The translations under genes were made by a program, and so were the position numbers. A stretch of 13,645 nucleotides of DNA. Origin: Bacillota bacterium. GTDB lineage: Bacteria; Bacillota_I; Bacilli_A; RF39; UBA660. The notes under the pieces were generated by a model. It saw only the letters and a program-made list of their open reading frames with translations, searched no databases and was not told the origin of the DNA. Positions 1 to 13,645 of the stretch are shown one piece after another. The stretch covers positions 1 through 13,645 of the forward strand of contig QAMK01000001.1 of assembly GCA_003149915.1 (NCBI GenBank). Reading direction: 5' to 3'. Position 1 is the stretch's first letter, and each line of letters opens with the position of its first letter.

Positions 1-2
1 AA

Positions 3-1076
3 AATATCAAAAAGAAGATAATTGAACTAAAATGCTCGCAAGATTACTGTGATACTAATTTTACTCATTTTAAAGAATTATTAGAAGAAAGAGAAAATAT
101 CATGATTTCTTATACTGCTCTTTACAATATTCTCACTACTCAGGGAATTAAATCCAAAAAGAAACATAAAGATCGAAAAACTCATAGAAGACGAAAAAGA
201 AAAGAATATGAAGGCGAACTGGTTCAGGCAGACGGAACACCATTTGATTGGTTTCAAAACGGTCATAAATATTCGATTCATGGTTTTATTGATGATGCAA
301 CCGGCAAAATATTAGGTCTTTATATGTGTGAACATGAATGTCTTTTGGGATATTTAGAAGCACTCAGACAAATGCTTACAAATTATGGAAGTCCTAAGTA
401 TTTATATCCTGATAAATACTCTGTCTTTTTCCCTGCTATGTCTCAGAAAGTTACGCTTGAAGAACAACTAGAAGGTAAAGAAAAACCAACTACTCAATTT
501 GGAAGAATTATGGATTTTCTTGGTATTGAAATGTTCCCTGCTTCTTCTTCCCAAGCTAAAGGACGAATTGAAAGGCTATGGGGAACTCTACAAGATCGCT
601 TAATTACAGAATTTAAAATTAATGACGTTCATACTATCGAACAAGCAAATGATTTTTTACCTAAATACATCAAAAAACATAATAAAAAATTTGCTATTGA
701 TGCTGTTAAGACTGAAAGCAAATTTGTTCCTATTCCTAGTTATGTCAATTTAGATTTATTACTTGCTTCCAAATTAACTAGAGTAATCGATAATTCTGGC
801 ACTTTTACCATCCAAAACAAAAAGTTTCAAATTCTTAATAATCATATCTCTCCAGGTGTTAAGGTTGAAATTTATATGAGCAAAAAAATTGGTATCATTG
901 TTTTACACAATAATACCAAGTACAAAGTGGTTAGTGTTGATTCTCTTCCAGCAAAATATTCAACACTTAACCTAAATCAATTTTACAAAGAACATAGTTT
1001 AGAAATCAATAATTTTGTCGAGCATTTACTTTCTTACGATGCCAAACAAAACAGTCCTTTGCTTACTACATCTTAA
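3..1076 (+). CDS. ISNCY (IS1202-like) family DDE transposase, 5' end cut by window edge
   Basis: Transposase that would cut and join the ends of its own insertion sequence. The frame stays open to the left edge: 33 codons read in frame before the ATG at 102, including FTHFKELLEERENI, so the true start lies outside and the ATG is internal. Numbering from that ATG, the DDE triad is visible as D44 (QADGTPFDW), D104 (YPDKYSVF) and E157 in QAKGRIERLWGTLQDRL, a stretch typical of this family. A basic segment (residues 17-35, many Lys/Arg) precedes the catalytic core. The visible 357 residues lack the N-terminal helix-turn-helix region expected in full proteins of roughly 430 residues. The C-terminus looks complete and ends in TAA. 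No frameshift or internal stop is seen, so the element may be intact outside the window. The family call rests on recalled motifs, not a search. Confidence 0.9.
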   Translation, partial: NIKKKIIELKCSQDYCDTNFTHFKELLEERENIMISYTALYNILTTQGIKSKKKHKDRKTHRRRKRKEYEGELVQADGTPFDWFQNGHKYSIHGFIDDATGKILGLYMCEHECLLGYLEALRQMLTNYGSPKYLYPDKYSVFFPAMSQKVTLEEQLEGKEKPTTQFGRIMDFLGIEMFPASSSQAKGRIERLWGTLQDRLITEFKINDVHTIEQANDFLPKYIKKHNKKFAIDAVKTESKFVPIPSYVNLDLLLASKLTRVIDNSGTFTIQNKKFQILNNHISPGVKVEIYMSKKIGIIVLHNNTKYKVVSVDSLPAKYSTLNLNQFYKEHSLEINNFVEHLLSYDAKQNSPLLTTS

Positions 1077-1121
1077 CAAATTATTATTCTTTTTTCAATA
1101 TACTTCGATAGTATACCACCC

Positions 1122-1169
1122 TATGACATTTTCATATGTTAATTTTGTTCATTTTTTATGACATTTTCA
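1122..1169. repeat. Two 13-base direct repeats in the IS 3' flank
   Basis: TATGACATTTTCA occurs at 1122-1134 and again at 1157-1169; the spacer is AT-rich. Both copies lie between the transposase stop and the convergent 1358-residue gene. A pair of identical short repeats at the edge of an IS fits transposase-binding sites, but this is inference. No convincing terminator hairpin with a U-tract for either convergent gene is visible in 1077-1189. Confidence 0.55.
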
Positions 1170-1189
1170 AAAATTATTGACATACTTTT

Positions 1190-4100
1190 TTAACGGAATA
1201 AAACACATGCAATTAATAGTAAAATCGATAAAGCCGATACGGTGTACATCAAATACAAACTGATGTTATCTGCATATCCAAGAGTACGGTGTGTTGTTTC
1301 TGTTTCTTGCTGTGTATTTCCTTCTACATCGATTGTTCCATTAGCCATTGCCGCTACAATTTGGTCTGCTCTTTCTTCTACATTGGAACTTTGATTTTGC
1401 CTTTCTAAATCCACTTTCTTGACATAAGCACGAAGAGTTTCCTTCATTCTTATATATCCATCTACTGCCATATTGTCATATACGAATTCATTATGTGGGT
1501 AAACATCCTTTTCTTCTGCCGTATGATTCTTACCAAAATCCCAGATTTGATAACGATCTTTGAAACGATCAAACTCTGCTTTTTCTTTTGCTTCCTGCGA
1601 CATAGATGCAGTATCAGAATCGGTTTCTACTTCTTTTTTAGTCTCTTCTGCTGCCTCTAAAAATGTTTTACTCGCCTCGTAGAAAGATCCACCATTTTGT
1701 AAAATCCAGTTTTCAACTCCAACGCCACCTAACCCATTTTCACCGACATTAGAATGGAACGGTTTATAACATTTCCCTTCTTTCAAAGTCTTTTTAGCAA
1801 TAATAACATTTGCAAGAACTGCTTGATACTTTTCTTCAGAAAGATTACGAATTGTTTCTAACCTATCCCTTAGACACATATCAGTCGAATAATCCACTTT
1901 ATCAGTCTTTTGAATAAATGTCATATCAACATCGACTGGTTCGTCTAGGCCGTCCAAAGAGACTCCTTTATATCTGAAATCTCCTTTACCCGTTTCACTG
2001 GCATCTTTAGCATGTGCTCCTAATTCTTGACGTAGTAAGTTTTTAAACTCTTTTAGTTTTTGTTCATCTGCAATCAAGGCTCTATCTAATCGCACCATAA
2101 AGTCGAAGTCACCATCGTTTGGTTTATTGGTATCTCTTCCAGTAGAACCCGTATCGATGATTTCTACAGTTCCTGGTACTAATTCTTTCTCTAACTCATA
2201 AACCGGTGTGATACCAGAACCTTCTAAACACCTTTCTACTGTCTTTAAAATGGCATCTCGTTTTCTCTTTGTCTCTTCCTGATTTCCTTTATTCTGTGCC
2301 ATTACCTCTCTTACATCATCTGTAATTAGCATCTCTTCAGGGGCAAATTCAAAGGAATCTCCAAGTCCATAATAAGACAAGCCTTGCATCTTTGTACGCA
2401 TATAATCATATTGTTCTGGTGCAAAAATCAATTTCCCTTCTTCGTTTACGACAGGAATATAAAATCCATTTTTAACGATTTCAAAATTTAATTTTCGTTC
2501 GTTACTAGGAACAACGAAATAATCAATTTCGGAAGAAGCAAAACCAGTTCGAATGCCGTAATGACTATTTGCTACACCACCAGTATAAAACGCCTCTAAT
2601 TTTGTTGCATCAAAATTTTCCTTACTTGCTATAGAGTCGTGAGATGTTTTCGTTATCACGAATCTACCATCACATTTTAGTACGACCGAAATGTCTCCAT
2701 ATCCCCGTATTCTAGTGTCATACGTTTCTTGAAACGTTTCTTTTTGTTCTTCAACTCTTGTTAAGTCAGTATCTAACGGGGTGCCATCTGTAGTAGATGC
2801 TGGTCCTAAAAACTCCTTACATACTGATCCGTTTTGCAAAATAGATTCCATGTATTGAATACTATTTAAACCTTTTACGAAATCTCCTTTTTCCAATGTA
2901 AAAGCATGTTTTGCTTCCTCTCTATGCTTTTCATCTGCCATCGCTACTTTGGCATGCATATAATTTTTAGCATCTTCAAATGTATCAATTCCAGCAAAAT
3001 GACAAAACATTTCTGTTAAACGATCTGGCAAATTATAATCTAGTTTTCCGTCTTTAGAAAAAAGCGTTGCCATTTCTAAAACGTTTTCGTATGTATCTTT
3101 TCCTAATTGATGAGCATTTGCAACTCCAGCTGCTCTCCCTTTCATCGTTTGATTGTAAAGAACATTCAAATGTCCTAGATAAGTATCCAAAATCTCTTTA
3201 TCTCGATTTGATAACTGACTTAATTCATTCTGATTTGTTAGAACACGTCGGAAAATTTTATCTCCTTTTTCGATTGACTCAAAATAATTAATTACGGAAC
3301 GATTATTGGATCCAAACGACGCTTTAATCAAATCAGCAAAAATCAAAATATCTTTACCACGGCTTGATTTGGCATTTAACATCGGAGAACCATAATTTGA
3401 TGCATACTCGGGATTTAATATTTTATAGACTTGATATGCTTTGGCCACATATGGCAAATTATTTTTTAAAAATATATCTTCAATTTGGTCTAATGTATCA
3501 TATGGATTTTCAGATGCCATAATCGGATCAATTAATGTTTCTCCAAGTCTTTGGATTTCGGAAGAATTAGATGTCGCAAGTCTAGAAACGATATTGCGGA
3601 TATCTTCTACATCATATTTTCTTACAATCGAATACAATATTTTTTTATCTTTGATATAGTTTAATAACTTGTCCTTGCCAATAAAGTCAATCGGTTTTTT
3701 CTGTTCAAACATATTTTCTAACATCGGATAAGTTTTTAGTGCCATAGATAAATATTCTAAATTTCCAGTTAAAAGTGCACTATTAGCTAACTGGAAAGCA
3801 TTTTTTAGTTGTTGTTCTGATATTCCCGCGATTTGCAGTTCAGACTTAGAAAAAACTAGTTCTTGTAAATGATATTGTTCTATAAATTGTCTAGGGTAGC
3901 TTAATAATTCGTCCCATATATATACATATTCGTTTGAACCAACCTCAATTTTTTCACGCAAAATATTATCATTTTTCTCATTAAATTTCACTAAAGTATC
4001 AAAGTAAAATCTAGAGATCCTATCAGATAGTCCTTGATTGAATAATTCATCTATTGAACCACCAGTACTTACATAATAATCAAGTACTGTAATATTTAGA

Positions 4101-5266
4101 TTATTGCAAATCAAGAATCCTTCTAGTCGTCTAACAAAATCCGGTAATGGCAATGGATGATCAAATAATTTTTCTTGTAAAGTTTGGTTTTTTTCGCTTT
4201 GATTCATAATATCCAATGCTTCATCGAAAATACTTGGAATTTCATTAAAAAAATGCTCTAGGTCACCAAATTTTTCAATTACTTGTTGTAATCCAGGTAA
4301 TAAATAGCGATAATCAACATTCTTTAATTCTTCGTAATGATTTCGTATGTCTTGAACCGTTAGGCTTCTTGTATAAAACCTGTTTTCTAAATCTTTATCT
4401 TGAAATGTTACATTCATTTCAGGATGATATTTTAAAAAGAAATCCGGATATTTTGTTTTAAAATTCTCTATTTTGTATGGGTTTTGAGAAATACTTGACC
4501 GTCTAGGTTTTCCTGAAATTAATTCATTATAGATTTTTTCTGCTATGACTTGCTCTGCTTGTTCAACGGATTCCACTTTTACATCTTTTGGTAACAATAT
4601 CTGATTTGTTGCAATGTATTGATATAGTTTTGGTTCTTGACTTAGAATAGAGCTTAACAAAGTTGGATTCCAATCATATACAGCTGTATTTCGTCCTTCA
4701 GACGAACTGTGATTTTTTGGTTTATTCACCAGTTGAACGTTTAATAGGCTAGGATAGGCTTCTATATCTTCAAATGTTAATGTCTCTTGATAGAAACGAT
4801 TTTGAATATCTTTTGGTATCTCATCCGATGGAAATCGATGTGGATTTTTTGCAATGATGTCATTCCCAAAGACTTTCTTTATTTCATCGTTTGATAGAGG
4901 ATAATATTCGTATAAATCTAGTTCATCCAATCCAGTTACATTGCAACCATTGAAATTACACTCTGTAATCCAATGCTTATTTCCAATATTATGAGCAATG
5001 TCCAAGCTGTGGAAATCGATATTCGCATGCGTTCCTTCGAAATTTGCCGGGATTGAAATTCCTTCTAAAGTTCCACAGGCAACTGGTAACCCTTCCCATG
5101 CGCTAGCAGGAATCATAGATAAATCGTAACTCAGTAGATTTTTTTGAAAATTAGCAACAGTCTGGTATGTTTCTTGAGTCCAGGAAGAAACAGATTCTAA
5201 CCATTGAATATATTCTTGTTTGATGCGATTAAATTCTTCGACACTCAATTTTTCTCTTTCTTCCAT
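1190..5266 (-). CDS. Large protein of unknown function with Pol-beta-like nucleotidyltransferase domain and C-terminal membrane anchor
   Basis: 1358 residues, role unknown. Residues about 1005-1210 look like a class I CCA-adding/OAS-like nucleotidyltransferase: GSTGRDTNKPNDGDFDFMV (1040-1058) gives the Gly-Ser motif plus D1053 and D1055, and VDVDMTF (1111-1117) supplies the third Asp (D1112 or D1114). Residues 1178-1206 (GLGGVGVENWILQNGGSFYE and on) resemble the helical domain that follows the catalytic core in archaeal-type CCA enzymes. All metal-binding Asp appear present, so activity is plausible; the transferred nucleotide and acceptor are unknown. One hydrophobic helix (about 1335-1356) ends the protein, and no signal peptide is seen, so a tail-anchored protein facing the cytoplasm is inferred. 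Residues 1-990 are unassigned; they include a duplicated motif (150-183, 288-320) and a conserved-looking block (800-970). The ATG at 5266 has an AGAAGG ribosome site 11-12 bases upstream. It seems to be a single-gene unit. It could be a CD-NTase relative, but no effector gene is adjacent. Confidence 0.75.
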   Translation of the reverse strand: MEEREKLSVEEFNRIKQEYIQWLESVSSWTQETYQTVANFQKNLLSYDLSMIPASAWEGLPVACGTLEGISIPANFEGTHANIDFHSLDIAHNIGNKHWITECNFNGCNVTGLDELDLYEYYPLSNDEIKKVFGNDIIAKNPHRFPSDEIPKDIQNRFYQETLTFEDIEAYPSLLNVQLVNKPKNHSSSEGRNTAVYDWNPTLLSSILSQEPKLYQYIATNQILLPKDVKVESVEQAEQVIAEKIYNELISGKPRRSSISQNPYKIENFKTKYPDFFLKYHPEMNVTFQDKDLENRFYTRSLTVQDIRNHYEELKNVDYRYLLPGLQQVIEKFGDLEHFFNEIPSIFDEALDIMNQSEKNQTLQEKLFDHPLPLPDFVRRLEGFLICNNLNITVLDYYVSTGGSIDELFNQGLSDRISRFYFDTLVKFNEKNDNILREKIEVGSNEYVYIWDELLSYPRQFIEQYHLQELVFSKSELQIAGISEQQLKNAFQLANSALLTGNLEYLSMALKTYPMLENMFEQKKPIDFIGKDKLLNYIKDKKILYSIVRKYDVEDIRNIVSRLATSNSSEIQRLGETLIDPIMASENPYDTLDQIEDIFLKNNLPYVAKAYQVYKILNPEYASNYGSPMLNAKSSRGKDILIFADLIKASFGSNNRSVINYFESIEKGDKIFRRVLTNQNELSQLSNRDKEILDTYLGHLNVLYNQTMKGRAAGVANAHQLGKDTYENVLEMATLFSKDGKLDYNLPDRLTEMFCHFAGIDTFEDAKNYMHAKVAMADEKHREEAKHAFTLEKGDFVKGLNSIQYMESILQNGSVCKEFLGPASTTDGTPLDTDLTRVEEQKETFQETYDTRIRGYGDISVVLKCDGRFVITKTSHDSIASKENFDATKLEAFYTGGVANSHYGIRTGFASSEIDYFVVPSNERKLNFEIVKNGFYIPVVNEEGKLIFAPEQYDYMRTKMQGLSYYGLGDSFEFAPEEMLITDDVREVMAQNKGNQEETKRKRDAILKTVERCLEGSGITPVYELEKELVPGTVEIIDTGSTGRDTNKPNDGDFDFMVRLDRALIADEQKLKEFKNLLRQELGAHAKDASETGKGDFRYKGVSLDGLDEPVDVDMTFIQKTDKVDYSTDMCLRDRLETIRNLSEEKYQAVLANVIIAKKTLKEGKCYKPFHSNVGENGLGGVGVENWILQNGGSFYEASKTFLEAAEETKKEVETDSDTASMSQEAKEKAEFDRFKDRYQIWDFGKNHTAEEKDVYPHNEFVYDNMAVDGYIRMKETLRAYVKKVDLERQNQSSNVEERADQIVAAMANGTIDVEGNTQQETETTHRTLGYADNISLYLMYTVSALSILLLIACVLFR

Positions 5267-5289
5267 GTTACTTACCTACCTTCTATTTC

Positions 5290-5298
5290 ATTATAACA
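5290..5298 (-). promoter_or_regulatory. Extended -10 promoter of the 1358-residue gene
   Basis: Read on the minus strand this is TGTTATAAT: a consensus TATAAT -10 (5290-5295) with the TG extension one base upstream. No good -35 is present; its position falls in the T-tract of the preceding terminator. The spacing from the -10 to the ATG at 5266 is about 23 bases, leaving a very short leader that still contains the ribosome site. Confidence 0.6.
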
Positions 5299-5311
5299 AA
5301 AATGAGAACAT

Positions 5312-5334
5312 AAAAAAAGAGACTTTCGTCTCTT
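5312..5334 (-). terminator. Intrinsic terminator of the DUF92 fusion gene
   Basis: On the minus strand a perfect 7-bp stem AAGAGAC/GTCTCTT (5328-5334 with 5317-5323) closes a GAAA tetraloop and runs straight into seven Ts (5318-5312). The first bases of the stem are part of the TAA stop codon of the gene it terminates (5333-5335). Confidence 0.85.
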
Positions 5335-6763
5335 AGAATACTAGGAATGCAACCATACCTGCAAGAAGTGCTGCAATCATAGAAGTTAAGAAGTTTACCA
5401 TTCCGTTTGTGATAAAATCGTAACCTGACACTTTGCGAATTCCCTTCATGCTCTTTGGTTTCTTTTCTAGGATAACTCCTTCTTTTTCATCGTAGTATTT
5501 TACTTGTAATAAAATTCCGAATAAACTATCCAAAAGAGATGTGAATACACCGAAGAAGAAGACAATTGCAAATCTCGGAATGATGTTATCGCCACCCAAA
5601 ACATTACTGAATAGTGCGATGAACAAGGCACCAAATACGGCTCCTGCCATACCTAGACTCGTAACACCACCAGATTCTCCCTTTGGAATTGGTTTCCACG
5701 TTAGGATAGAACGAACTTTTTCTTTTGAGAAGTATCCTAAACCACTACTCCATGTATCTGCTGTAACACCAGCGATAGCAGTCATCTCACAAACGAGAGC
5801 AATTTCACTACCAGTTGCGTAGTACATGATGCCGAATAGTAAACATGGAAGCCCGTTTTCGATAACATCACGGATGTCTTTTACTTTATCTTTTTTCGGT
5901 TTTTTATGATAATGTTCTAGCATAGCACTCGTCACAAAGAACAAAATCAATGCCCAGAATACAACCGGTCCATTTAAATAGAACACAGCTGTTCCTAAGA
6001 CCATGGCAGCAAAGCCGCCACCGTACGTTAAAAGTCCATTTAGCATCGATACAAAGACGATGATGCCAGTGATACTAAAGGCAATTCCGAACTTTAAGAA
6101 CGTCGGTTCTGTCATCAATAAAAATGTACAAAGTGCTGTAAATAATGGAACTGTAAAGTTATCAATTCCACCAACAGAGAACAGTTCTGTAATCGTTGCA
6201 AAGCAGGCGATGAAGAATGCATATGTAATTGTCATATCCGTCATTGCCAATGCTTCTAATAGTGCAGCAGCAATGATGAACGATATGATAAATACTGTGA
6301 AACTTCCTTCCGCTGTCTTGTGTGGAATCGGAAACTTATGTCGACCGATATACTCGCTTACTAAGCCGCCGATACCATCACCGTAACCAAGTATCAGGAT
6401 AGCAATGGCACCGATGTATTGGTAATCTGGATAACGGAACAATACAAATGCAAGGATTAACATTGCAATTGCATACCAGACGGTTCCAAATGTTTTATCC
6501 TTTCCCTTTCGTTCGATTCCTGGTATTTTGTCTGTCTTTAAATTAATGAAATTGATGATGACAAACAACAGAGGCAAAATACAGGCATAAATCCATTGAT
6601 CAAAAAAGATCATGGCAATCAGCCACCAGTTACACATACCAACATGTACAAACTTACGGCTGTCTTCTAATGAGAACTTCTTTTTCTTGTAACAGAAAAC
6701 GGATATACTAATAATCAAAACAATGTAAATGACAGATATTAGTAATCCCAACCAATTTGTCAT
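5333..6763 (-). CDS. Fusion of phytol/dolichol-kinase-like domain with DUF92 (VTE6/TMEM19-like) domain; likely isoprenoid-alcohol phosphorylation
   Basis: 476-residue polytopic membrane protein. Residues 1 to about 225 match the phytol/dolichol kinase branch of CTP-dependent membrane transferases: RKFVHVG (36-42), KDKTFGT (88-94), GYGDGIGGLVSEYIGRHK (126-143), KTAEGS (149-154) and DNFTVPL (201-207). Residues about 240-476 match DUF92: ADTWSSGLG (335-343), KGESGGVTSLG (361-371), LLDSLFG (410-416) and a closing NGMVNFLTS. In plants and cyanobacteria the separate proteins VTE5 and VTE6 make phytyl phosphate and then phytyl diphosphate, so the fusion suggests two-step phosphorylation of a prenol; the substrate here is unknown. 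The usual Glu in the DUF92 ADTWASE motif, as I recall it, is Gly here. The ATG at 6763 is chosen because GGGAG lies 8 bases upstream; the alternative GTG at 6772 overlaps that site. It has its own terminator and sits downstream of frr. Confidence 0.82.
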   Translation of the reverse strand: MTNWLGLLISVIYIVLIISISVFCYKKKKFSLEDSRKFVHVGMCNWWLIAMIFFDQWIYACILPLLFVIINFINLKTDKIPGIERKGKDKTFGTVWYAIAMLILAFVLFRYPDYQYIGAIAILILGYGDGIGGLVSEYIGRHKFPIPHKTAEGSFTVFIISFIIAAALLEALAMTDMTITYAFFIACFATITELFSVGGIDNFTVPLFTALCTFLLMTEPTFLKFGIAFSITGIIVFVSMLNGLLTYGGGFAAMVLGTAVFYLNGPVVFWALILFFVTSAMLEHYHKKPKKDKVKDIRDVIENGLPCLLFGIMYYATGSEIALVCEMTAIAGVTADTWSSGLGYFSKEKVRSILTWKPIPKGESGGVTSLGMAGAVFGALFIALFSNVLGGDNIIPRFAIVFFFGVFTSLLDSLFGILLQVKYYDEKEGVILEKKPKSMKGIRKVSGYDFITNGMVNFLTSMIAALLAGMVAFLVF

Positions 6764-6795
6764 ATTATTCACTCCCTATTCTTATGGTCATATTT

Positions 6796-6824
6796 ATGAT
6801 ACCATAATTTTTTTCTTTTTGAAA
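6796..6824 (-). promoter_or_regulatory. Possible weak promoter of the DUF92 fusion gene
   Basis: On the minus strand TATCAT (6796-6801) could serve as a -10, with TTTCAA (6819-6824) 17 bases upstream as a poor -35. It sits between the frr terminator and this gene, where a promoter is expected if the terminator works. The match is weak, so read-through from frr remains possible. Confidence 0.3.
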
Positions 6825-6833
6825 GACGTTTCC

Positions 6834-6861
6834 AAAAAAAAGAAGTACTTTTGTACTTCTT
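6834..6861 (-). terminator. Intrinsic terminator of frr
   Basis: A perfect 9-bp stem AAGAAGTAC/GTACTTCTT (6853-6861 with 6840-6848), loop of four bases, followed on the minus strand by about eight Ts (6841-6834). It overlaps the TAA stop codon of frr (6860-6862). Confidence 0.88.
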
Positions 6862-7408
6862 ACACAGTCATCAATTCTTTTTCTTTTTCTTTTAGAAGTT
6901 CTTCGATTTTTTTGTTGTATTCATCTGTTAATGATTGAACATCTTTTTCCATTCCCTTTTGAATGTCTTCTGAAATATCTTCTAATTTATCGATTTCGTT
7001 AATGGCATCGCGGCGGATGTTACGAATGGCAACTTTTCCTTCTTCAGCCATTGCTTTTACTTGTTTCGATAATTCTTTTCTTCTTTCTTCCGTTAAAGCA
7101 GGAATGACAATACGAAGTGTTTCTCCATCGTTACTTGGATTGTAACCAAGATTTGCTGCTACGATAGCCTTTTCCATAGATCCTAGGCAATGTTTATCGA
7201 AAGGTCTAATTAACAGTTGGTTGCCTTCTGGAACAGAAATTGTTCCTAAGCTTTTCAATGGTGTCATCGTTCCATAGTAATCAACCATAACACCGTCTAA
7301 ACTAGATGGATTGGCACGTCCAGCACGTACTGTTGAAAACCTTTTTTCAAGTCCTTCTAATGATTGTATCATTTTATTTTTTGCGTTTGTTTTTATTTCG
7401 TCGTTCAT
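6860..7408 (-). CDS. frr: Ribosome recycling factor
   Basis: RRF frees the ribosome from mRNA after termination by splitting the post-termination complex with EF-G. The 182-residue product is close to the usual length of about 185. Family landmarks are in order: FSTVRAGRANPSSLDGVMVD near the N-terminus (the hinge and start of the domain II region), YYGTMTPLKSLGTISVPEG, the RPFDK segment, NPSNDGETLRIVIPALTEER, and RRDA in the second long helix. It starts at an ATG with a good AGGAG ribosome site 6 bases upstream. In many bacteria frr follows pyrH; here the next gene upstream ends an unrelated ABC exporter unit with its own terminator, and a promoter of good quality lies directly before frr, so it is transcribed alone. 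The assignment is secure. Confidence 0.97.
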   Translation of the reverse strand: MNDEIKTNAKNKMIQSLEGLEKRFSTVRAGRANPSSLDGVMVDYYGTMTPLKSLGTISVPEGNQLLIRPFDKHCLGSMEKAIVAANLGYNPSNDGETLRIVIPALTEERRKELSKQVKAMAEEGKVAIRNIRRDAINEIDKLEDISEDIQKGMEKDVQSLTDEYNKKIEELLKEKEKELMTV

Positions 7409-7438
7409 GATATCTCCTTCATTCTTATTTATAGTACT

Positions 7439-7467
7439 ATTGTACGGAATTTTTCTCTTTTTTTCAA
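7439..7467 (-). promoter_or_regulatory. Sigma-A-type promoter of frr
   Basis: On the minus strand TTGAAA (7462-7467), a 17-base spacer, then TACAAT (7439-7444): one mismatch from consensus in each box. The -10 is about 30 bases before the frr ATG, leaving room for the AGGAG site. Confidence 0.7.
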
Positions 7468-7504
7468 GAGAATTCCTATGTTTTTAGTAGAAAGAACAGA
7501 ATGG

Positions 7505-7533
7505 AAACAAAAAGAGATTGGCAAACCAATCTC
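7505..7533 (-). terminator. Intrinsic terminator of the ABC exporter operon
   Basis: A perfect 8-bp stem GAGATTGG/CCAATCTC (7526-7533 with 7514-7521), four-base loop, followed on the minus strand by a T-rich run (TCTTTTTGTTT). The stem begins six bases after the TAA of the permease gene. Confidence 0.85.
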
Positions 7534-7539
7534 CATGGA

Positions 7540-8853
7540 TTATTTTTCTTTGGTTCTAGCAGCTTTTAAAATACGCATCCACATTTTATCTGTCGAATAA
7601 TTCAAAATTCCGACTTTGTAAATTCGTAATCCATATTTTATAGCAAAATAGATAAATACAATTAGTAGTGCAATTGCAATAAGACAATCTACAATGCCGA
7701 TTTCACCAATCACCAACAATGCTGGTGATAGTAAACATGAGATAAACGGAATATAAGATAATACTCGAATAAGAATAGAACCTTTGAACATACTTGCCAT
7801 AATTGCCAAATAGTAACCCACTAGTAGAATCACTAAAATCGGTCCTTGAATTTGTTGATAATCATCCATATTGACGGTCATCGATGCCAATATTCCTGCA
7901 ACCAACGCGTATGCGATAAATGATAATACCATTAACACTAATGTAATCGGAATAATATAGATTAATTTATCCATGATTCCAGTGGATGATAACGTCGTCA
8001 AAATACCATCGGCACCACTCATGATACCACCCGTGATGGCATCACCGCCAATCATATTTCGTACTACCATACCGATAACGGCATATATAATTAGCAACAA
8101 TCCTTGACTGATGATAAAAATATTAGAAGATAAAATCTTAGAAAAGAAATGTGCTTTGGGACTGACGTTCGAAATGATAATTTCCATACTTCGACTGGAT
8201 TTTTCGTCGTTGATTTCGGTTCCAATCATTTGGATTAAGAAGATAACTAGCATGAAGAACGGTAAAATGACAGTTGGGAATACCGTTCCCATAATCAAGG
8301 TCATACTATCGTCCATATCTTGCTCTTGCTCATTTAAAATGATTCGCTCAATCGTTGCCGGTGCAGAGATAGAAGCTAACACTTCTGGATTGATATCACT
8401 TTCACTCATCGCATAACTTTGTTTGACCAAAGTAATCGCACTGGCAATTCCTTGATAGAAAAGTCCGTCGATTGTATCATCTGAAATTACTTTTGCATCC
8501 AAATAATTTGTATCTGATGGTGTAAAGTACACTAAAATTTTATCGGTGTCTTTAATACTTTCTTGAGCACTTTCTAATGTACCTTCTACTTTTTCAAATG
8601 TCATTTCCGTATCGGTTAGGGAAACGCTATTTGCTTCTAATGTAGCTTGGAATTCATCGTAGATACCTACTTCATCCAATACCTCAATTTCATACGTATC
8701 GTTAAAGTCACCACCAAAGAATGTAATGATGGAATCGATGTTTACTAATGCAACAATCGATACTAGTAAGATGATATTGACAATGACAAACCATTTCGTT
8801 TTCATCTTTTTCTTTAAACTATAGTTAACTAAAAACCAAAACTTATTCGTCAT
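7540..8853 (-). CDS. ABC-2 type exporter permease, NatB-like
   Basis: Membrane subunit of an ABC exporter paired with the ATPase encoded just upstream. 437 residues: one N-terminal membrane helix (about 22-42), a large extracytoplasmic domain (about 45-180, rich in Asp/Glu/Thr), then about six helices (near 183-209, 244-265, 298-324, 338-355, 362-382 and 385-405). EKSSRSMEIIISNVSP after the second helix is the ATPase-coupling segment seen in this family (compare EK-R-MEVL motifs of ABC-2 permeases). The architecture fits NatB/YhaP-type permeases linked to Na+ or drug/peptide export; the cargo cannot be told. The ATG at 8853 is preferred, with AGGTG just upstream; an upstream GTG (8862) lies inside that site. 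The gene overlaps the ATPase gene by 11 bases, so translation is probably coupled. A strong terminator follows. Confidence 0.9.
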   Translation of the reverse strand: MTNKFWFLVNYSLKKKMKTKWFVIVNIILLVSIVALVNIDSIITFFGGDFNDTYEIEVLDEVGIYDEFQATLEANSVSLTDTEMTFEKVEGTLESAQESIKDTDKILVYFTPSDTNYLDAKVISDDTIDGLFYQGIASAITLVKQSYAMSESDINPEVLASISAPATIERIILNEQEQDMDDSMTLIMGTVFPTVILPFFMLVIFLIQMIGTEINDEKSSRSMEIIISNVSPKAHFFSKILSSNIFIISQGLLLIIYAVIGMVVRNMIGGDAITGGIMSGADGILTTLSSTGIMDKLIYIIPITLVLMVLSFIAYALVAGILASMTVNMDDYQQIQGPILVILLVGYYLAIMASMFKGSILIRVLSYIPFISCLLSPALLVIGEIGIVDCLIAIALLIVFIYFAIKYGLRIYKVGILNYSTDKMWMRILKAARTKEK

Positions 8854-9742
8854 AGTGAGCACCTACTTTCTCAATAAAGATTTCATTTAGAGAAGGCTCT
8901 AACGTTACAAACTTTGTAATCTCGTCGCTCTTTGAAAACGAATGGAATACATCTTTTACAACACTCTCATCGCTAATCTTTACAACGTACTCATCATGTT
9001 CTTTCGTAACACTTAGTACTCCTTTAATCTTTTCTATCTTCTTAGGATCAAACTTACCTTGAATGACGATATTCTTTTTGCGATAGTCTTTCTTAATCTG
9101 CTTTAAATATCCTTCTAGGACTGGATGACCATGAACTAAAATCACTAATTTTTCGCAGAACTCTTCTACGTGTTCCATTTGATGAGAAGAGAAAATAATC
9201 GATGTCCCCTTCTTCTGTAAATCGTAAATGGCATCTTTTAACAGTTTTACATTAATCGGATCCAAGCCTGTAAACGGTTCATCCAAAATCAATAATTTTG
9301 GTTCATTGATTACCGCACTGATAAACTGAATTTTTTGTTGATTACCTTTCGATAGCTCTTTGATTTTCCGATTTAAATAATCTGGAATTTGGAAATAGTT
9401 TAACCAATAATCTAGTTTCTTTAAAATGTCTTCTTCTAACATTCCTTTTAGGGTACCGTAAAATAAAATTTGTTCTTTTACCGTCATCTTTCCTAAAAGA
9501 CTTCTCTCTTCTGTTACAAATCCAATTTTGTCTGTGACATCATAGTCGATTTTCTTTCCGTCTAAAGTTACTTTACCAGATGTTGCTTCTAAAAGTCCCA
9601 TAATGATACGGAAGGTTGTCGTTTTACCGGCACCATTCGCTCCTAAAAGGCCAAAGATTTCTCCATCTTTCACAGTAAACGATAAATCGTCAACTGCTTT
9701 GTTGTCACCGTAATACTTTACGATATGTTCTACTTTTAACAT
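8843..9742 (-). CDS. ABC exporter ATP-binding protein, NatA-like
   Basis: Cytoplasmic ATPase that powers the neighbouring permease. In the 299-residue product the motifs are: Walker A GANGAGKT (34-41), an EER segment (78-80) in place of the usual Q-loop Gln, signature LSKGNQQK (130-137, the variant common in NatA/YhaQ-type subunits rather than LSGGQ), Walker B LLILDEP (150-156) with catalytic E155, D-loop GLD (159-161) and the switch His in SSHQ (H187). The last 90 residues fit the C-terminal extension (DUF4162-like) of this group. The ATG at 9742 is preferred because AGAGG lies seven bases before it; an upstream TTG at 9760 reads through the ribosome site. First gene of a two-gene operon with the permease. 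All catalytic residues are present. Confidence 0.95.
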   Translation of the reverse strand: MLKVEHIVKYYGDNKAVDDLSFTVKDGEIFGLLGANGAGKTTTFRIIMGLLEATSGKVTLDGKKIDYDVTDKIGFVTEERSLLGKMTVKEQILFYGTLKGMLEEDILKKLDYWLNYFQIPDYLNRKIKELSKGNQQKIQFISAVINEPKLLILDEPFTGLDPINVKLLKDAIYDLQKKGTSIIFSSHQMEHVEEFCEKLVILVHGHPVLEGYLKQIKKDYRKKNIVIQGKFDPKKIEKIKGVLSVTKEHDEYVVKISDESVVKDVFHSFSKSDEITKFVTLEPSLNEIFIEKVGAHYDE

Positions 9743-9761
9743 CTCATCACCTCTAATCAAT

Positions 9762-9790
9762 ATTCTAAATCATCATAATAAAAGAAGCAA
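9762..9790 (-). promoter_or_regulatory. Possible promoter of the ABC exporter operon
   Basis: On the minus strand TTGCTT (9785-9790), a 17-base spacer and TAGAAT (9762-9767). The -35 lies inside the terminator of the histidine kinase gene, so the two signals would be nested. The leader would be only about 10-15 bases before the ribosome site. Moderate match; read-through from the kinase gene is the alternative. Confidence 0.35.
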
Positions 9791-9804
9791 TCCTTATTGG
9801 ATTG
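9774..9804 (-). terminator. Probable weak terminator after the hybrid kinase gene
   Basis: A 6-bp stem CAATCC/GGATTG (9799-9804 with 9788-9793) with a five-base loop, extended by A-U pairs beyond one mismatch and followed by an interrupted T-run (CTTTTATTAT). The TAA stop codon (9794-9796) is in the loop. The stem and tail are weaker than at the other genes, so partial read-through into the exporter genes is plausible. Confidence 0.5.
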
Positions 9805-12172
9805 TTTCTAGATATTTTTGAAGGATTTCACGAACACGATTTACTTCCCGTTCTAATCTTGCAAAATCAGATGTAATGAACTCGGCATCTCCCGACTTAC
9901 TCTTCACTTCTTCTTCGAAAGCAATGTCTGCTAATTCTTTACAACCTAAGTATTTGGAATCACTCTTTAAGGAATGAACTTCAACCGCATAATTTGCCAT
10001 GTCTTTTTGATCTTTTAACTCTCTCATTTTATTCATTCTACTCTCTAAGCCACTAACATAATCTTTGGCTGTATCGTTGTACGTATCGATATCTCCTAGT
10101 AACTCAAGTCCTTTGGCAACATCGATTCTAGCGTCCATCAGTTGCTTTGTAGAATTTTGTTTTTTCTCTTCAGCTGCGATTAGTTCGTTCGTTAAATCTT
10201 TGGTATTTTCCGTAACCGGAGGAATGTCATAATCATCTCTCAAATCAGCTGGTTGCGCAATGTCCAATTTATCATTAGAACCGACTTCATAAATTGAAGC
10301 TGGCAAGTCTCCAAATAAGGAATCTTGTTCTTGCGGTTTGCTAGATGGTGCTGGTGCACTTTTAAATATAGTTGCCAATAATTTCTCTAATGGTTCCTTT
10401 TCAATTGGTTTGGCCAAGTAATCGTTAAAGCCAGCAGATAAATACTTCTCTCTCATACCGTTAATAGCATTGGCTGTTAACGCAACAACAGGTGTTTGAA
10501 ATCCTGGAATTTCTTTTAACTTTGCTAACGTTTCCGTTCCACTCATCTTAGGCATCATATCGTCCATTAAAATCAAATCGAATTGTTCGCCACTCTTGAT
10601 TTTATCGATACACTCAAATCCAGATGAGACATTTACTAGTTCTTTCGGATTGTATTTTTCTAATATTTTTCCTGCTACTTTTAGATTTAGCATATTATCA
10701 TCTACAACTAGTACTCGTTTTCCTAATAAAGATACTGTTCCACTTTCATTTTCGTTAATCACTGTTACTTTTTCTCCCTCTGATACAATCTTTTGATTTA
10801 AAATAATTGTAAATTTAGAACCACTGCCATATACACTTTGAACGATAATTTTTCCACCCATCATTTCTACTAATTGTTTGGTAATGGCAAGACCTAAACC
10901 CGTTCCTTCGACGGTTGTATTTCTATCTTCGTCTAATCGTTCGAACTTATTAAATAGTTTGTCAATATTTTCTGGTTTAATTCCTCTTCCAGTATCTTCT
11001 ACAGACACAATGATTCGACAAATATCGCCATTTTTCACACACGATACATCGTATTTTACATATCCTTTCTTCGTGTACTTAACTGCATTTGATAGAATAT
11101 TGGTAATTACTTTTTTCACGTTAGCTGCATCGCCATACAATGTTTTGGGAATATCTTCGGCGATATGAATCTGTAAATCTAGTCCTCGTTCTGTTGCTCT
11201 AGGTATCATCAATTTACCTAATTCTTTAAATGTATCATAAGCCTGGTAATTGGCATTCGTAATTTCCATTTTACCAGCTTCAATTTTTGAAATATCCAAG
11301 ATGCCATTTACAATTTCTAATAAGGTATTAGATGCTGTGACAACATCTTTGGCATTTTCTTTTGCTTCGTCTAGTGTCTTTGCATCTTCAATACAACTAC
11401 TAAACCCAACAATGGCATTCAAAGGTGTTCTAATTTCATGCGACATACTAGATAAGAAATCCGTCTTTGCTTGATTGGCCTTTTCTGCTTGATCTTTGGC
11501 CACATTTAATGCATGAATCATTTTCAAGTCTGGGTTTTCCATTGTAAAATACATCAAATAGTTAATAAATGTAATCGTTATTGAAATAATAATTAAATAA
11601 GGGGCCATCTGGTAAACAATTGATAAAAATCCAAAGGCAAAAATAATTGCGAAGATGGGGATGTATCGTTTGTCTAAATTTCGAATTCTAGTAAACGCAA
11701 TGATAATGGCACTGACAATATGAAGAATACAGATAAAATATGTTACGTATGTTGCTGGACCTGTTACTGATAAACTGCCATTTGTTTCTACGATATTTAA
11801 ATCTAGCAACAACATGATTAATATTCCAACAACATTGATAATCTGTATTGGTAAAACTGTTTTTGTCTGGCGTGCTTTTTGTTCTGTAAATGTAATTACA
11901 ATCGTATAGTAAAGTAAGCAAGTCGTAATTAATATTAAACAAATGAAGTCTAATTTGTTTAAAATGTTTACAAATACTTCTATTAAAGGAGTAATTTCTC
12001 CTATTGAAAAAACTCTTAAAATAGTTACTAAAATACTATCAATTAAACTACATACTAACATAATTGAATATGTTTTGTTTTCTAATGTATTTAATCTTTT
12101 TTTACTAAAATAAACGCAACATAATAATGCCGAAAAAATGATTGCGCATAATGGTAACTGTAATGTTCCCAC
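9794..12172 (-). CDS. Membrane hybrid sensor histidine kinase with receiver and Hpt domains
   Basis: Complete 792-residue phosphorelay protein. Residues 1-210 hold about seven membrane helices (near 5-22, 37-58, 68-92, 106-126, 143-163, 168-187, 190-209) with little outside the membrane, so the signal is probably sensed in or near the bilayer. Then a dimerisation/phosphoacceptor domain (FLSSMSHEIRTPLNAIVGFS, His245), an ATPase domain (N-box N358/N362, DTGRGI 393-398, GTGLGL 423-428), a receiver (acidic pair D491-D492, phosphoacceptor D537 in LILMDDMMP, T566, K588), a loose Pro/Asp-rich linker (605-680) and an Hpt domain (HSLKSDSKYLG, His733). The order His-Asp-His implies transfer to a separate response regulator, which is not in the window. 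The GTG start at 12172 has AGAGGTG seven bases upstream and no better ATG nearby. It has its own promoter. The signal is unknown. Confidence 0.95.
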   Translation of the reverse strand: MGTLQLPLCAIIFSALLCCVYFSKKRLNTLENKTYSIMLVCSLIDSILVTILRVFSIGEITPLIEVFVNILNKLDFICLILITTCLLYYTIVITFTEQKARQTKTVLPIQIINVVGILIMLLLDLNIVETNGSLSVTGPATYVTYFICILHIVSAIIIAFTRIRNLDKRYIPIFAIIFAFGFLSIVYQMAPYLIIISITITFINYLMYFTMENPDLKMIHALNVAKDQAEKANQAKTDFLSSMSHEIRTPLNAIVGFSSCIEDAKTLDEAKENAKDVVTASNTLLEIVNGILDISKIEAGKMEITNANYQAYDTFKELGKLMIPRATERGLDLQIHIAEDIPKTLYGDAANVKKVITNILSNAVKYTKKGYVKYDVSCVKNGDICRIIVSVEDTGRGIKPENIDKLFNKFERLDEDRNTTVEGTGLGLAITKQLVEMMGGKIIVQSVYGSGSKFTIILNQKIVSEGEKVTVINENESGTVSLLGKRVLVVDDNMLNLKVAGKILEKYNPKELVNVSSGFECIDKIKSGEQFDLILMDDMMPKMSGTETLAKLKEIPGFQTPVVALTANAINGMREKYLSAGFNDYLAKPIEKEPLEKLLATIFKSAPAPSSKPQEQDSLFGDLPASIYEVGSNDKLDIAQPADLRDDYDIPPVTENTKDLTNELIAAEEKKQNSTKQLMDARIDVAKGLELLGDIDTYNDTAKDYVSGLESRMNKMRELKDQKDMANYAVEVHSLKSDSKYLGCKELADIAFEEEVKSKSGDAEFITSDFARLEREVNRVREILQKYLETIQ

Positions 12173-12199
12173 TTCTTTTCACCTCTACTCTACTTTTTC

Positions 12200-12208
12200 A
12201 TTATAACA
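12200..12208 (-). promoter_or_regulatory. Extended -10 promoter of the hybrid kinase gene
   Basis: On the minus strand TGTTATAAT, a TATAAT -10 (12200-12205) with TG extension; no clear -35 at the proper distance. The 13 bases TGTTATAATGAAA are identical to those at the promoter of the 1358-residue gene. It lies about 28 bases before the GTG start. Confidence 0.6.
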
Positions 12209-12227
12209 TAAAAAATGATAACATAAT

Positions 12228-12257
12228 AAAAAACATATGAAAAATCATATGTTTTTT
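12228..12257 (-). terminator. Intrinsic terminator of the acyltransferase gene
   Basis: A perfect 13-bp inverted repeat AAAAAACATATGA/TCATATGTTTTTT (12228-12240 with 12245-12257) with a four-base loop. It is AT-rich but long, and its 3' arm supplies the U-run on the minus strand. It begins five bases after the TAA of the acyltransferase gene. The A-run on the 5' arm means it could also act on the plus strand, where no gene needs it. Confidence 0.8.
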
Positions 12258-12262
12258 GAATA

Positions 12263-13150
12263 TTATCTTCCTAATCTTCTAATTCGTGATAGTACTTTGC
12301 AATTTTGCGGAGTCAACTCAATCTGTTCTAATGGTTTGAATACTTCATCTGGATCCGTTACAGTTTTATCTTTAAAGTTTGCATTATTTTCTACTTCTGT
12401 AACATAATATTGAACTTCTGAAATTCGTTTATTTAAAAACTGTTGCCATTGTTCATCCATAGGTATTCCGTTATCGAAATCTTTTCTACTTGCCTTAGAG
12501 TATTTTTCAATTAACTCCCATTTCAATGTTGCCATCTTATCGCGTAAAACTTTAATTCCTTCTTCTTTATCATACTGTGAAATATCGAACGCGTCATCGA
12601 TACTAACATAACAGGTATCCCCTTCCACGTGAGTTGCCATCGGGACAACCCATGCACCGTGATTTGTTGCTAAATCATATACTCCTGGAAATATTTTTTC
12701 GGCTGGCTTATTTGGGGTTTTGTTCCAAGCTCCTTCAACGAAATCGATGACTTTACCGCCCATATCTAGTACCTTGCCAATTTTTAATTTAGATGCTGCT
12801 CTGCTTTTTTTATCCATACGGTCTACTAATATTACACCGTATAGCCATGATGAAACTCCATCGAATGTATGAAAGAATTGTGGCAAGCTTCCAAATAGAA
12901 TATATGCATGCGTATCAATTGCGCGAAGTACATATAAGATATCATATTTAAAGCTATGAGTTGGTGTAAAAATAATCGGAATATTATCCGGAATATTCCC
13001 TTTTTTCTCTACCACTAAATTTAAATCACTAAATTTTGGCAATGCCATTCTAACATAAGGATTCAACTTTTTTCTTAGCTTATAACTTCTCTCTGTGATC
13101 GTTTTGTCTGGATCATTATCCAATAAATGTTCAAAATAAAAATTATACAT
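12263..13150 (-). CDS. PlsC-like lysophospholipid acyltransferase family protein
   Basis: Probably transfers an acyl group to a lysophospholipid or related acceptor at the inner face of the membrane. In the 295-residue protein the family motifs are recognisable: the catalytic H-x4-D as HSFKYD (His65, Asp70) after NIPIIFTPT; a motif II-like VILVDRMDKKS (107-117); motif III as FVEGAWNKTP (137-146), where the usual FPEG reads FVEG; and a motif IV-like region AWVVPMATHVEGD (166-178). There is no clear membrane helix of full length. The last 80 residues are charged and unassigned. It starts at an ATG with GGGGAG seven bases upstream, behind a perfect sigma-A promoter, and is followed by a terminator, so it is a single-gene unit. 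The substrate and the choice between housekeeping PlsC and a paralog cannot be settled from sequence; the divergence suggests a paralog. Confidence 0.8.
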   Translation of the reverse strand: MYNFYFEHLLDNDPDKTITERSYKLRKKLNPYVRMALPKFSDLNLVVEKKGNIPDNIPIIFTPTHSFKYDILYVLRAIDTHAYILFGSLPQFFHTFDGVSSWLYGVILVDRMDKKSRAASKLKIGKVLDMGGKVIDFVEGAWNKTPNKPAEKIFPGVYDLATNHGAWVVPMATHVEGDTCYVSIDDAFDISQYDKEEGIKVLRDKMATLKWELIEKYSKASRKDFDNGIPMDEQWQQFLNKRISEVQYYVTEVENNANFKDKTVTDPDEVFKPLEQIELTPQNCKVLSRIRRLGR

Positions 13151-13181
13151 AGAAAACTCCCCTTTTTAAAAAGTCTTGCTT

Positions 13182-13210
13182 ATTATATCACAAGTTGTTA
13201 ACTTTGTCAA
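13182..13210 (-). promoter_or_regulatory. Perfect consensus sigma-A promoter of the acyltransferase gene, with inverted repeat in the spacer
   Basis: On the minus strand TTGACA (13205-13210), a spacer of exactly 17 bases, and TATAAT (13182-13187): both boxes match consensus at every base. The spacer carries an inverted repeat AAGTT-GTT-AACTT (13192-13204), placed where a repressor would block the polymerase; an operator role is inference. Confidence 0.88.
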
Positions 13211-13235
13211 AAAAGTGAAGTCACAGATAGTTTTT

Positions 13236-13645
13236 GCAAATGGAAATAATAAGTGTCCGCACATCTAATTACCTAAATGTAAGTTAATTTATTGATTTAA
13301 TAATAACATGTTTGAACTTTTGTAGTCAAACATGGCACGAGGATAATTATTGATCCAATCTTCTATTTTCTTTATAAAAGATGTTTTGATATTTGCGATA
13401 TCCGTTCCTTTTGGAATCCATCTTCTAATCAGTCTATTATTATTTTCATTACTTCCTCGTTCTCCCGAACAATATGGATGAGCATAATAAATTTTTACTC
13501 TAATTCCTTTCTTTCTACAGGATTTTTCTATCCCTTCGTACCCCATAAATTCTACACCATTATCAAATGTTATTGACTTAAAAATTTGATAAAATTTACT
13601 GCCATATTTTCTTTCCAGTTTATCTAATGCTCTGGCTATTGTTTC
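13236..13645 (-). mobile_element. IS30-family insertion sequence, 3' part; boundary approximate
   Basis: The element carries the IS30 transposase gene and runs off the right edge. After the stop codon (13289) about 50 bases lead to a segment that reads GTGCGGACACTTATTATTT on the minus strand (13244-13262), which resembles the terminal repeats of IS30 elements of Bacillota as I recall them. I place the end near 13236-13243, about 30 bases upstream of the acyltransferase -35 box. The opposite end and the target duplication are not in the window. Confidence 0.6.
13289..13645 (-). CDS. IS30 family transposase, C-terminal part; 5' end cut by window edge
   Basis: Transposase of an IS30 element. 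The frame is open up to the right edge: reading from 13645 it gives ETIARALDKLERKYG and continues to SITFDNGVEFMGYEGIEKSC, so the ATG at 13546 is internal. TFDNGVEF holds the second catalytic Asp, and AHPYCSGERGSNENNNRLIR holds the DDE Glu (in GSNENNN), followed by RWIPKGTD and WINNYPRAMFDYKS, all hallmarks of IS30 C-termini. The first Asp and the N-terminal DNA-binding domain lie outside the window. About 118 residues are visible of a usual 310-350. No internal stop or frameshift is seen in the visible part; it ends in TAA. Confidence 0.93.
   Translation of the reverse strand, partial: ETIARALDKLERKYGSKFYQIFKSITFDNGVEFMGYEGIEKSCRKKGIRVKIYYAHPYCSGERGSNENNNRLIRRWIPKGTDIANIKTSFIKKIEDWINNYPRAMFDYKSSNMLLLNQ

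Follow-up and report, generated by a model that had tools for sequence, protein, structure and literature searches.

The locus and its protein

The window analysed here is a stretch of 13,645 bp from a Bacillota bacterium (assembly GCA_003149915.1, contig QAMK01000001.1, positions 1 to 13,645), in which a gene on the minus strand encodes a protein of 1358 residues, P0001. Towards its end this protein carries two enzyme-like domains, a predicted ADP-ribosyltransferase (ART) fold followed by a predicted nucleotidyltransferase (NTase). An initial annotation of the same DNA had described the NTase and overlooked the ART-fold domain before it. The features of the gene are the following.

1190..5266, minus: open reading frame (ORF) of the 1358-residue protein, ATG start
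4907..5266, minus: N-terminal segment, residues 1-120 (LLSYDLS...THANIDF), by eye common to P0010-P0013, which have other C-termini
4718..4855, minus: scaffold repeat 1, residues 138-183 (repeat profile, 52.9 bits; itself one of the ten seed sequences of that profile)
4301..4459, minus: scaffold repeat 2, residues 270-322 (repeat profile, 15.9 bits; outside the profile seed)
2912..3601, minus: conserved all-helical region, residues 556-785 (relatives and predicted model)
2423..2896, minus: ART-fold domain, residues 791-948, with K798, D832, D834, E891 and R906 (fold search, conservation)
1388..2365, minus: NTase and helical domain of the CCA/poly(A)-polymerase type, residues 968-1293 (predicted model, fold search)
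2102..2149, minus: GSTGR...DGDFD motif, residues 1040-1055, with the putative metal-binding D1053 and D1055 (alignment)
1925..1933, minus: DVD, residues 1112-1114, with the third acid D1114 (alignment)
1208..1264, minus: C-terminal hydrophobic segment, residues 1335-1353, candidate tail anchor (mean hydropathy 2.12)
5290..5298, minus: extended -10 promoter-like TGTTATAAT, read from the sequence and not among the sites of the promoter and hairpin scan
5317..5334, minus: terminator-like hairpin upstream of the ORF (site scan)

The roughly 1000 residues noted earlier ahead of the NTase are indeed present, but they are not one unknown block, as they comprise two repeats, the all-helical region and the ART-fold domain. 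No named family was found for the protein, in agreement with the initial annotation: nothing exceeded the cut-offs of Pfam (best E below threshold 0.11) and NCBIfam (0.0037), while PADLOC, PHROGs and the PDB sequences gave no match at E <= 1 and BFVD none at E <= 0.001. Profile searches of PDB sequences likewise returned no matches or only weak, unrelated ones.

The nucleotidyltransferase domain

The C-terminal region was modelled with a pLDDT of 86.7, and the fold search groups residues 968-1293 with poly(A) polymerase (PAP), archaeal CCA-adding enzymes, Cid1 and CD-NTases. The motif GSTGRDTNKPNDGDFDFMV occupies residues 1040-1058 and VDVDMTF residues 1111-1117, in agreement with the earlier numbering. 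All 42 non-redundant members with the ART domain have D1053, D1055 and D1114, and 38 of them have D1112; an alignment of 56 rows shows no variation at any of the four acids. The pattern GSxxR...DxD recurs in 284 of 286 family entries, a count that includes duplicates (the window protein three times, the loci L002, L003 and L004 twice each); the misses are P0175 and the 234-residue P0205. The motif is therefore not due to chance. The predicted model has a palm-like fold in which the putative catalytic acids lie on adjacent strands, 508-515 and 566-574 (model numbering), as judged by strand position and not by distance. These observations support the assignment of residues 968-1293 to a Pol-beta-superfamily NTase with a CCA/PAP-type helical domain. 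The earlier recognition of a Pol-beta-like motif and of a CCA-like helical segment behind it is borne out, and the acids that it had placed in one active site agree with that placement in conservation and fold, their strand positions being taken from the model.

Similarity at the sequence level is much more distant. The family matched by most members is cca_archaeal of NCBIfam (6 of 38, best E 3.5e-4), and the 281.3-bit cut-off of this class I CCA-adding enzyme model (TIGR03671) is reached in none of five member genomes, in which a single match scored 17.7 bits. All five carry a PF01743 gene. We set aside a housekeeping CCA enzyme because of this gene and because of the patchy presence of the family described below. 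The MntA model matched one of 38 members (E 0.044), and HEPN_RiboL-PSP two of nine relatives, over their own C-terminal helices.

The ADP-ribosyltransferase-fold domain

In the predicted model residues ~791-948 fold like an ADP-ribosyltransferase, with Tpt1 and DarT as the closest structures in the fold search, and by this modelled fold the domain probably belongs to the ADP-ribosyltransferase superfamily. All 42 non-redundant members keep K/R798, T829, D832, D834, E891 and R906; the place of each in the putative site follows from strand order only. The NAD triads of ADP-ribosyltransferases are of the R-S-E, H-Y-E or H-H type. If aligned by strand order, the HG of KptA would correspond to K/R-G in this domain and the HVH strand to DxD. 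Comparison of 13 KptA frames with the ART alignment gave an hhalign probability of 0.4% and so no support at the sequence level. The N-lobe of Tpt1 is missing from the modelled domain, and the Tpt1/KptA hallmarks (HG[TS], H[VI]H strands, N-terminal lobe) were not found in it. Of the 160 entries of at least 700 residues, near-copies included, 159 contain the ART domain; short members lack the ART core.

The likeness of both domains to tRNA-acting enzymes invites the explanation that the protein repairs or maintains tRNA, the Tpt1-like domain clearing 2'-phosphates and the CCA-like domain rebuilding 3' ends. Such a role is consistent with the closest solved folds, which are Tpt1 for the ART-fold domain and, for the NTase, PAP, Cid1 and archaeal CCA enzymes, and with the six cca_archaeal matches. 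We nevertheless consider it improbable, given the unreached cca_archaeal cut-off, the absent N-lobe, the apparent replacement of the KptA residues, the PF01743 gene in every member genome tested, the patchy presence, and the toxin domains that co-occur in two giant relatives.

The C-terminal hydrophobic segment

By hydropathy scan the window protein has a single hydrophobic segment, at its C-terminus and none elsewhere, which is the pattern of a tail anchor. The C-terminal helix observed earlier is present, at residues 1335-1353, but such a segment terminates just 9 of the 286 family entries. These nine consist of three entries for the window protein, five proteins that share 86-94% identity with it, and the L065 protein. 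The membrane tail marks a small subgroup and is not a hallmark of the family.

This bears on the initial suggestion of a membrane-bound second-messenger synthase of the CD-NTase or OAS kind, for which the shared NTase fold would speak. The scarcity of the tail, the fusion to an ART domain in nearly all long entries, the lack of any PADLOC family matching the window protein, and the lack of a common neighbouring effector gene (by eye) all argue in the opposite direction, and we regard this explanation as very improbable.

Family size, scaffolds and distribution

A search of 5.8 billion proteins with the window protein recovered 12 relatives, six of them at 86-100% identity. P0008 and P0009 share 31-35% identity with it over 63-67% of the query, and P0010-P0013 have, by eye, the N-terminal part in common and different ends. 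A genome scan added four loci in uncultured Bacilli (L001-L004). With residues 1120-1560 of the L004 protein as query, 7980 candidates were scored and 1738 of them matched at E <= 1e-3; the whole two-domain query region is covered in 120 of these, those among the matches listed. A stand-alone relative of 414 residues gave 161 matches (120 among the matches listed). The two-domain family is large and has no name in any library used.

The N-terminal segment, which in the window group contains THANIDF, is separated from the conserved helical region by a stretch with repeats of ~50 residues. At least one repeat was found in 21 of 35 locus and window members, two in the window protein, and six at a spacing of ~142 residues in the L043 protein. 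A classification of the N-termini by simple patterns puts many members into 'other'. The same scaffold repeats precede a different C-terminus in P0010-P0013, and at L041 a protein of this type is encoded one 347-residue ORF away from an ART-NTase member, the pair sharing 22% identity across a 614-column scaffold stretch. This L041 paralogue (L041:11631-15998) has the C-terminus TLTDCCQELN..., which recurs in P0010-P0013 and looks PcfJ-like. Two members (L001:1832-5857 and L031:5878-11274) continue for an extra ~140 residues past the NTase, by eye like the ends of P0010-P0013. In six genomes the repeat profile found only frames of family members, in three of the six, and no genome-wide repertoire.

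The NTase also occurs in other company. At L046 its gene lies 6 bp behind that of a 1210-residue protein which contains an 'HSLGAY' domain; at L045 a domain of this kind is fused directly to the NTase. The pattern H[ST]LGAY...HGIC...HNE.VI.R...PDYVVYVVDD was observed in L046:8943-13798 and L045:6955-10503, and its end only in P0215; the domain had no Pfam match above cut-off in the L045 and L046 proteins.

The ART-NTase module is present in 17 of 243 genomes of a family sample, 23 of 288 of an order sample and 3 of 392 of a phylum sample, the last three, including the centre genome, being already among the order-sample finds. We rejected a phage or plasmid gene, as no record among viral contigs, phages and plasmids matched. 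The Frr of the window shares 69% identity with the Frr of member genome G155 and has a match in 12 of 15 member genomes tested, so that the window probably belongs to the order of these genomes. A gut habitat is suggested by sample names such as 'Lapin'.

Giant relatives

Two members are giants. The L044 ORF (L044:1-19998) is open over at least 6666 residues of its stretch (6816 were reported by the genome search) and has matches to a C39 peptidase, a transglutaminase and ADPrib_exo_Tox. An ADP-ribosylglycohydrolase gene (E 2.3e-67) follows directly and is a candidate immunity gene; the giant and this gene were observed on L044:1-19998 and L077:2-1671. The L039 ORF (L039:203-17276; 5100 residues) has ADPrib_exo_Tox near its end; upstream are three small ORFs, one of them WXG100-like at a sub-threshold E of 0.05, and downstream is a DUF4176 gene (E 2e-28). 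According to passages in two reports, DUF4176 genes often occur at substrate clusters of the type VIIb secretion system (T7SSb), and one is needed for TelA secretion (PMC10765036, PMC9600955). By its gene content the L039 cluster appears type VII-secretion-like. These toxin and secretion features were observed for the giants only. The T7SSb component EssC was above cut-off in 20 of 31 member genomes versus 13 of 31 non-member genomes, an enrichment that is not significant.

Three further observations were made alongside. The L039 giant contains another ART-looking stretch by eye, GLYHITSLESAQKILQSG. A 339-residue gene near a member (L032:14158-15174) has a WXG100-looking N-terminus, GSWNGSSHDNL (by eye), and a lone protein of 276 residues that begins MYIYRGI (L076:6534-7361) adjoins a member and is possibly another ART.

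Genomic context

The window gene is preceded by AGGTAGG at 5281-5275 (sequence reading). As the extended -10 sequence and the terminator-like hairpin lie upstream, it probably has its own promoter and forms its own transcription unit; the hairpin scan found three terminator-like sites against 1.8 expected by shuffling. The upstream neighbour (5333-6772) encodes a DUF92-type membrane protein (DUF92 E 2.5e-48), whose membrane part preceding the DUF92 domain presumably resembles phosphatidate cytidylyltransferase. Both window ends (3-1076 and 13289-13645) hold ORFs, each incomplete at the edge, that look like transposases.

The nearest ORFs at 32 loci (at most two per side) mostly have a housekeeping look and include, by eye, no common partner, effector or immunity gene, so that the survey of neighbours for effector genes proposed earlier disclosed no shared partner. 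PADLOC models were run at 1e-10, with no control set, on 111 of 121 neighbours, the other ten being short or near-duplicates. Of the 74 families matched, 25 are listed, and 22 of these are GajB models with one neighbour each, which probably stem from a UvrD-like helicase beside L034; the others among the matches listed are MzaA (3 of 111 neighbours, best E 3.4e-48), HTH_VI (2) and RTasHel (1). A prfB-looking gene lies beside the member at all four of the loci L069, L070, L071 and L072 (by eye), and at three of them a membrane-looking protein of 528-549 residues also adjoins the member (by eye). The shared prfB neighbourhood suggests stable, vertical inheritance rather than an island.

Such data bear on the main rival explanation, a single-gene intracellular defence by abortive infection, in which the 1000-residue scaffold would sense phage and keep both the ART and the NTase domain inactive as long as no infection occurs. 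It is consistent with the lack of a secretion signal by hydropathy in 37 locus and window entries (two without N-terminus, two duplicates), with the lack of a common immunity gene, with the patchy presence, with the MzaA matches, and with the position of L030 near a serine recombinase and apparent DpnII-type restriction genes (by eye). Against it stand the dominance of single-neighbour GajB matches in the PADLOC scan, the exported-toxin features of the giants, and the prfB neighbourhood, which does not look island-like. We consider it unlikely, though less so than the other rivals, and the scan of neighbours lends little support to a defence island.

A proposed two-enzyme effector module

The computed results are the two folds, the conservation of the residues that are putatively catalytic, the modular architecture, the patchy distribution and the toxin domains in two giants. 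Taken together, both folds, the fully kept polar residues, the interchangeable scaffolds and the toxin-domain giants lead us to interpret the protein as carrying a two-enzyme effector module of polymorphic conflict proteins, a Tpt1/DarT-like ART fold joined to a class I CCA/PAP-type NTase, to which we assign a probability of about 0.5. Activity, substrate and export would then be as follows. Both domains would be enzymatically active and would use NAD+ and NTP to modify one RNA target or a protein. Since the folds resemble those of two kinds of enzyme that act on tRNA, the most plausible target is RNA, and tRNA first, which is a guess by analogy. Large modular proteins end in the module, and the N-terminal scaffold of these proteins precedes other C-termini too, in the manner of polymorphic toxins. 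The module may serve in conflicts with competitors, a host or phage. The copy in the window may act at the cytoplasmic membrane through its tail, and giants such as those of L039 and L044 may be exported. Weighing against this interpretation, the lone mid-size members look cytosolic and lack immunity genes, and thus fit a conflict effector less well. The earlier labels 'RNA- or protein-nucleotidylating enzyme' and 'lineage-specific' are likely to apply.

More tentatively, and with considerable doubt, the family may represent a new class of bifunctional effector, in which one chain would use NAD+ and then NTP on the same RNA, for example by ADP-ribosylating and nucleotide-capping a tRNA end, with a polymorphic scaffold, exported giants and a membrane-anchored window lineage. 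No title among the literature matches listed concerned a fused ART and NTase or this family, and we know of no other chain that combines an ART with a CCA-type NTase. If active, it would be the first to our knowledge, and would extend the repertoire of polymorphic toxins by an NTP-using enzyme of this type. The two predicted active sites are both clear targets for mutation, and 1738 database proteins are concerned.

Comparison with known systems

The window family shares with class I CCA-adding enzymes the NTase fold, the helical domain behind it and the GS...DxD...D pattern. It differs in scoring far below the TIGR03671 cut-off (17.7 versus 281.3 bits), in carrying a large scaffold and an ART-fold domain in the same chain, and in that its genomes have a PF01743 gene besides. 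Residues 791-948 resemble Tpt1/KptA and DarT in fold, but differ from Tpt1/KptA in the lack of a sequence-level KptA match and of the N-lobe, and apparently, by strand order, in having K/R for the first His and DxD for the HVH strand. CD-NTases of cyclic-oligonucleotide-based antiphage signalling systems (CBASS) share the NTase fold, whereas the window protein has no PADLOC match and, by eye, no effector gene nearby. The likeness to T7SSb LXG toxins is confined to the L039 giant, with its WXG-like small ORFs, DUF4176 gene and toxin domain; the window gene, in contrast, has no such neighbours and its protein no LXG match.
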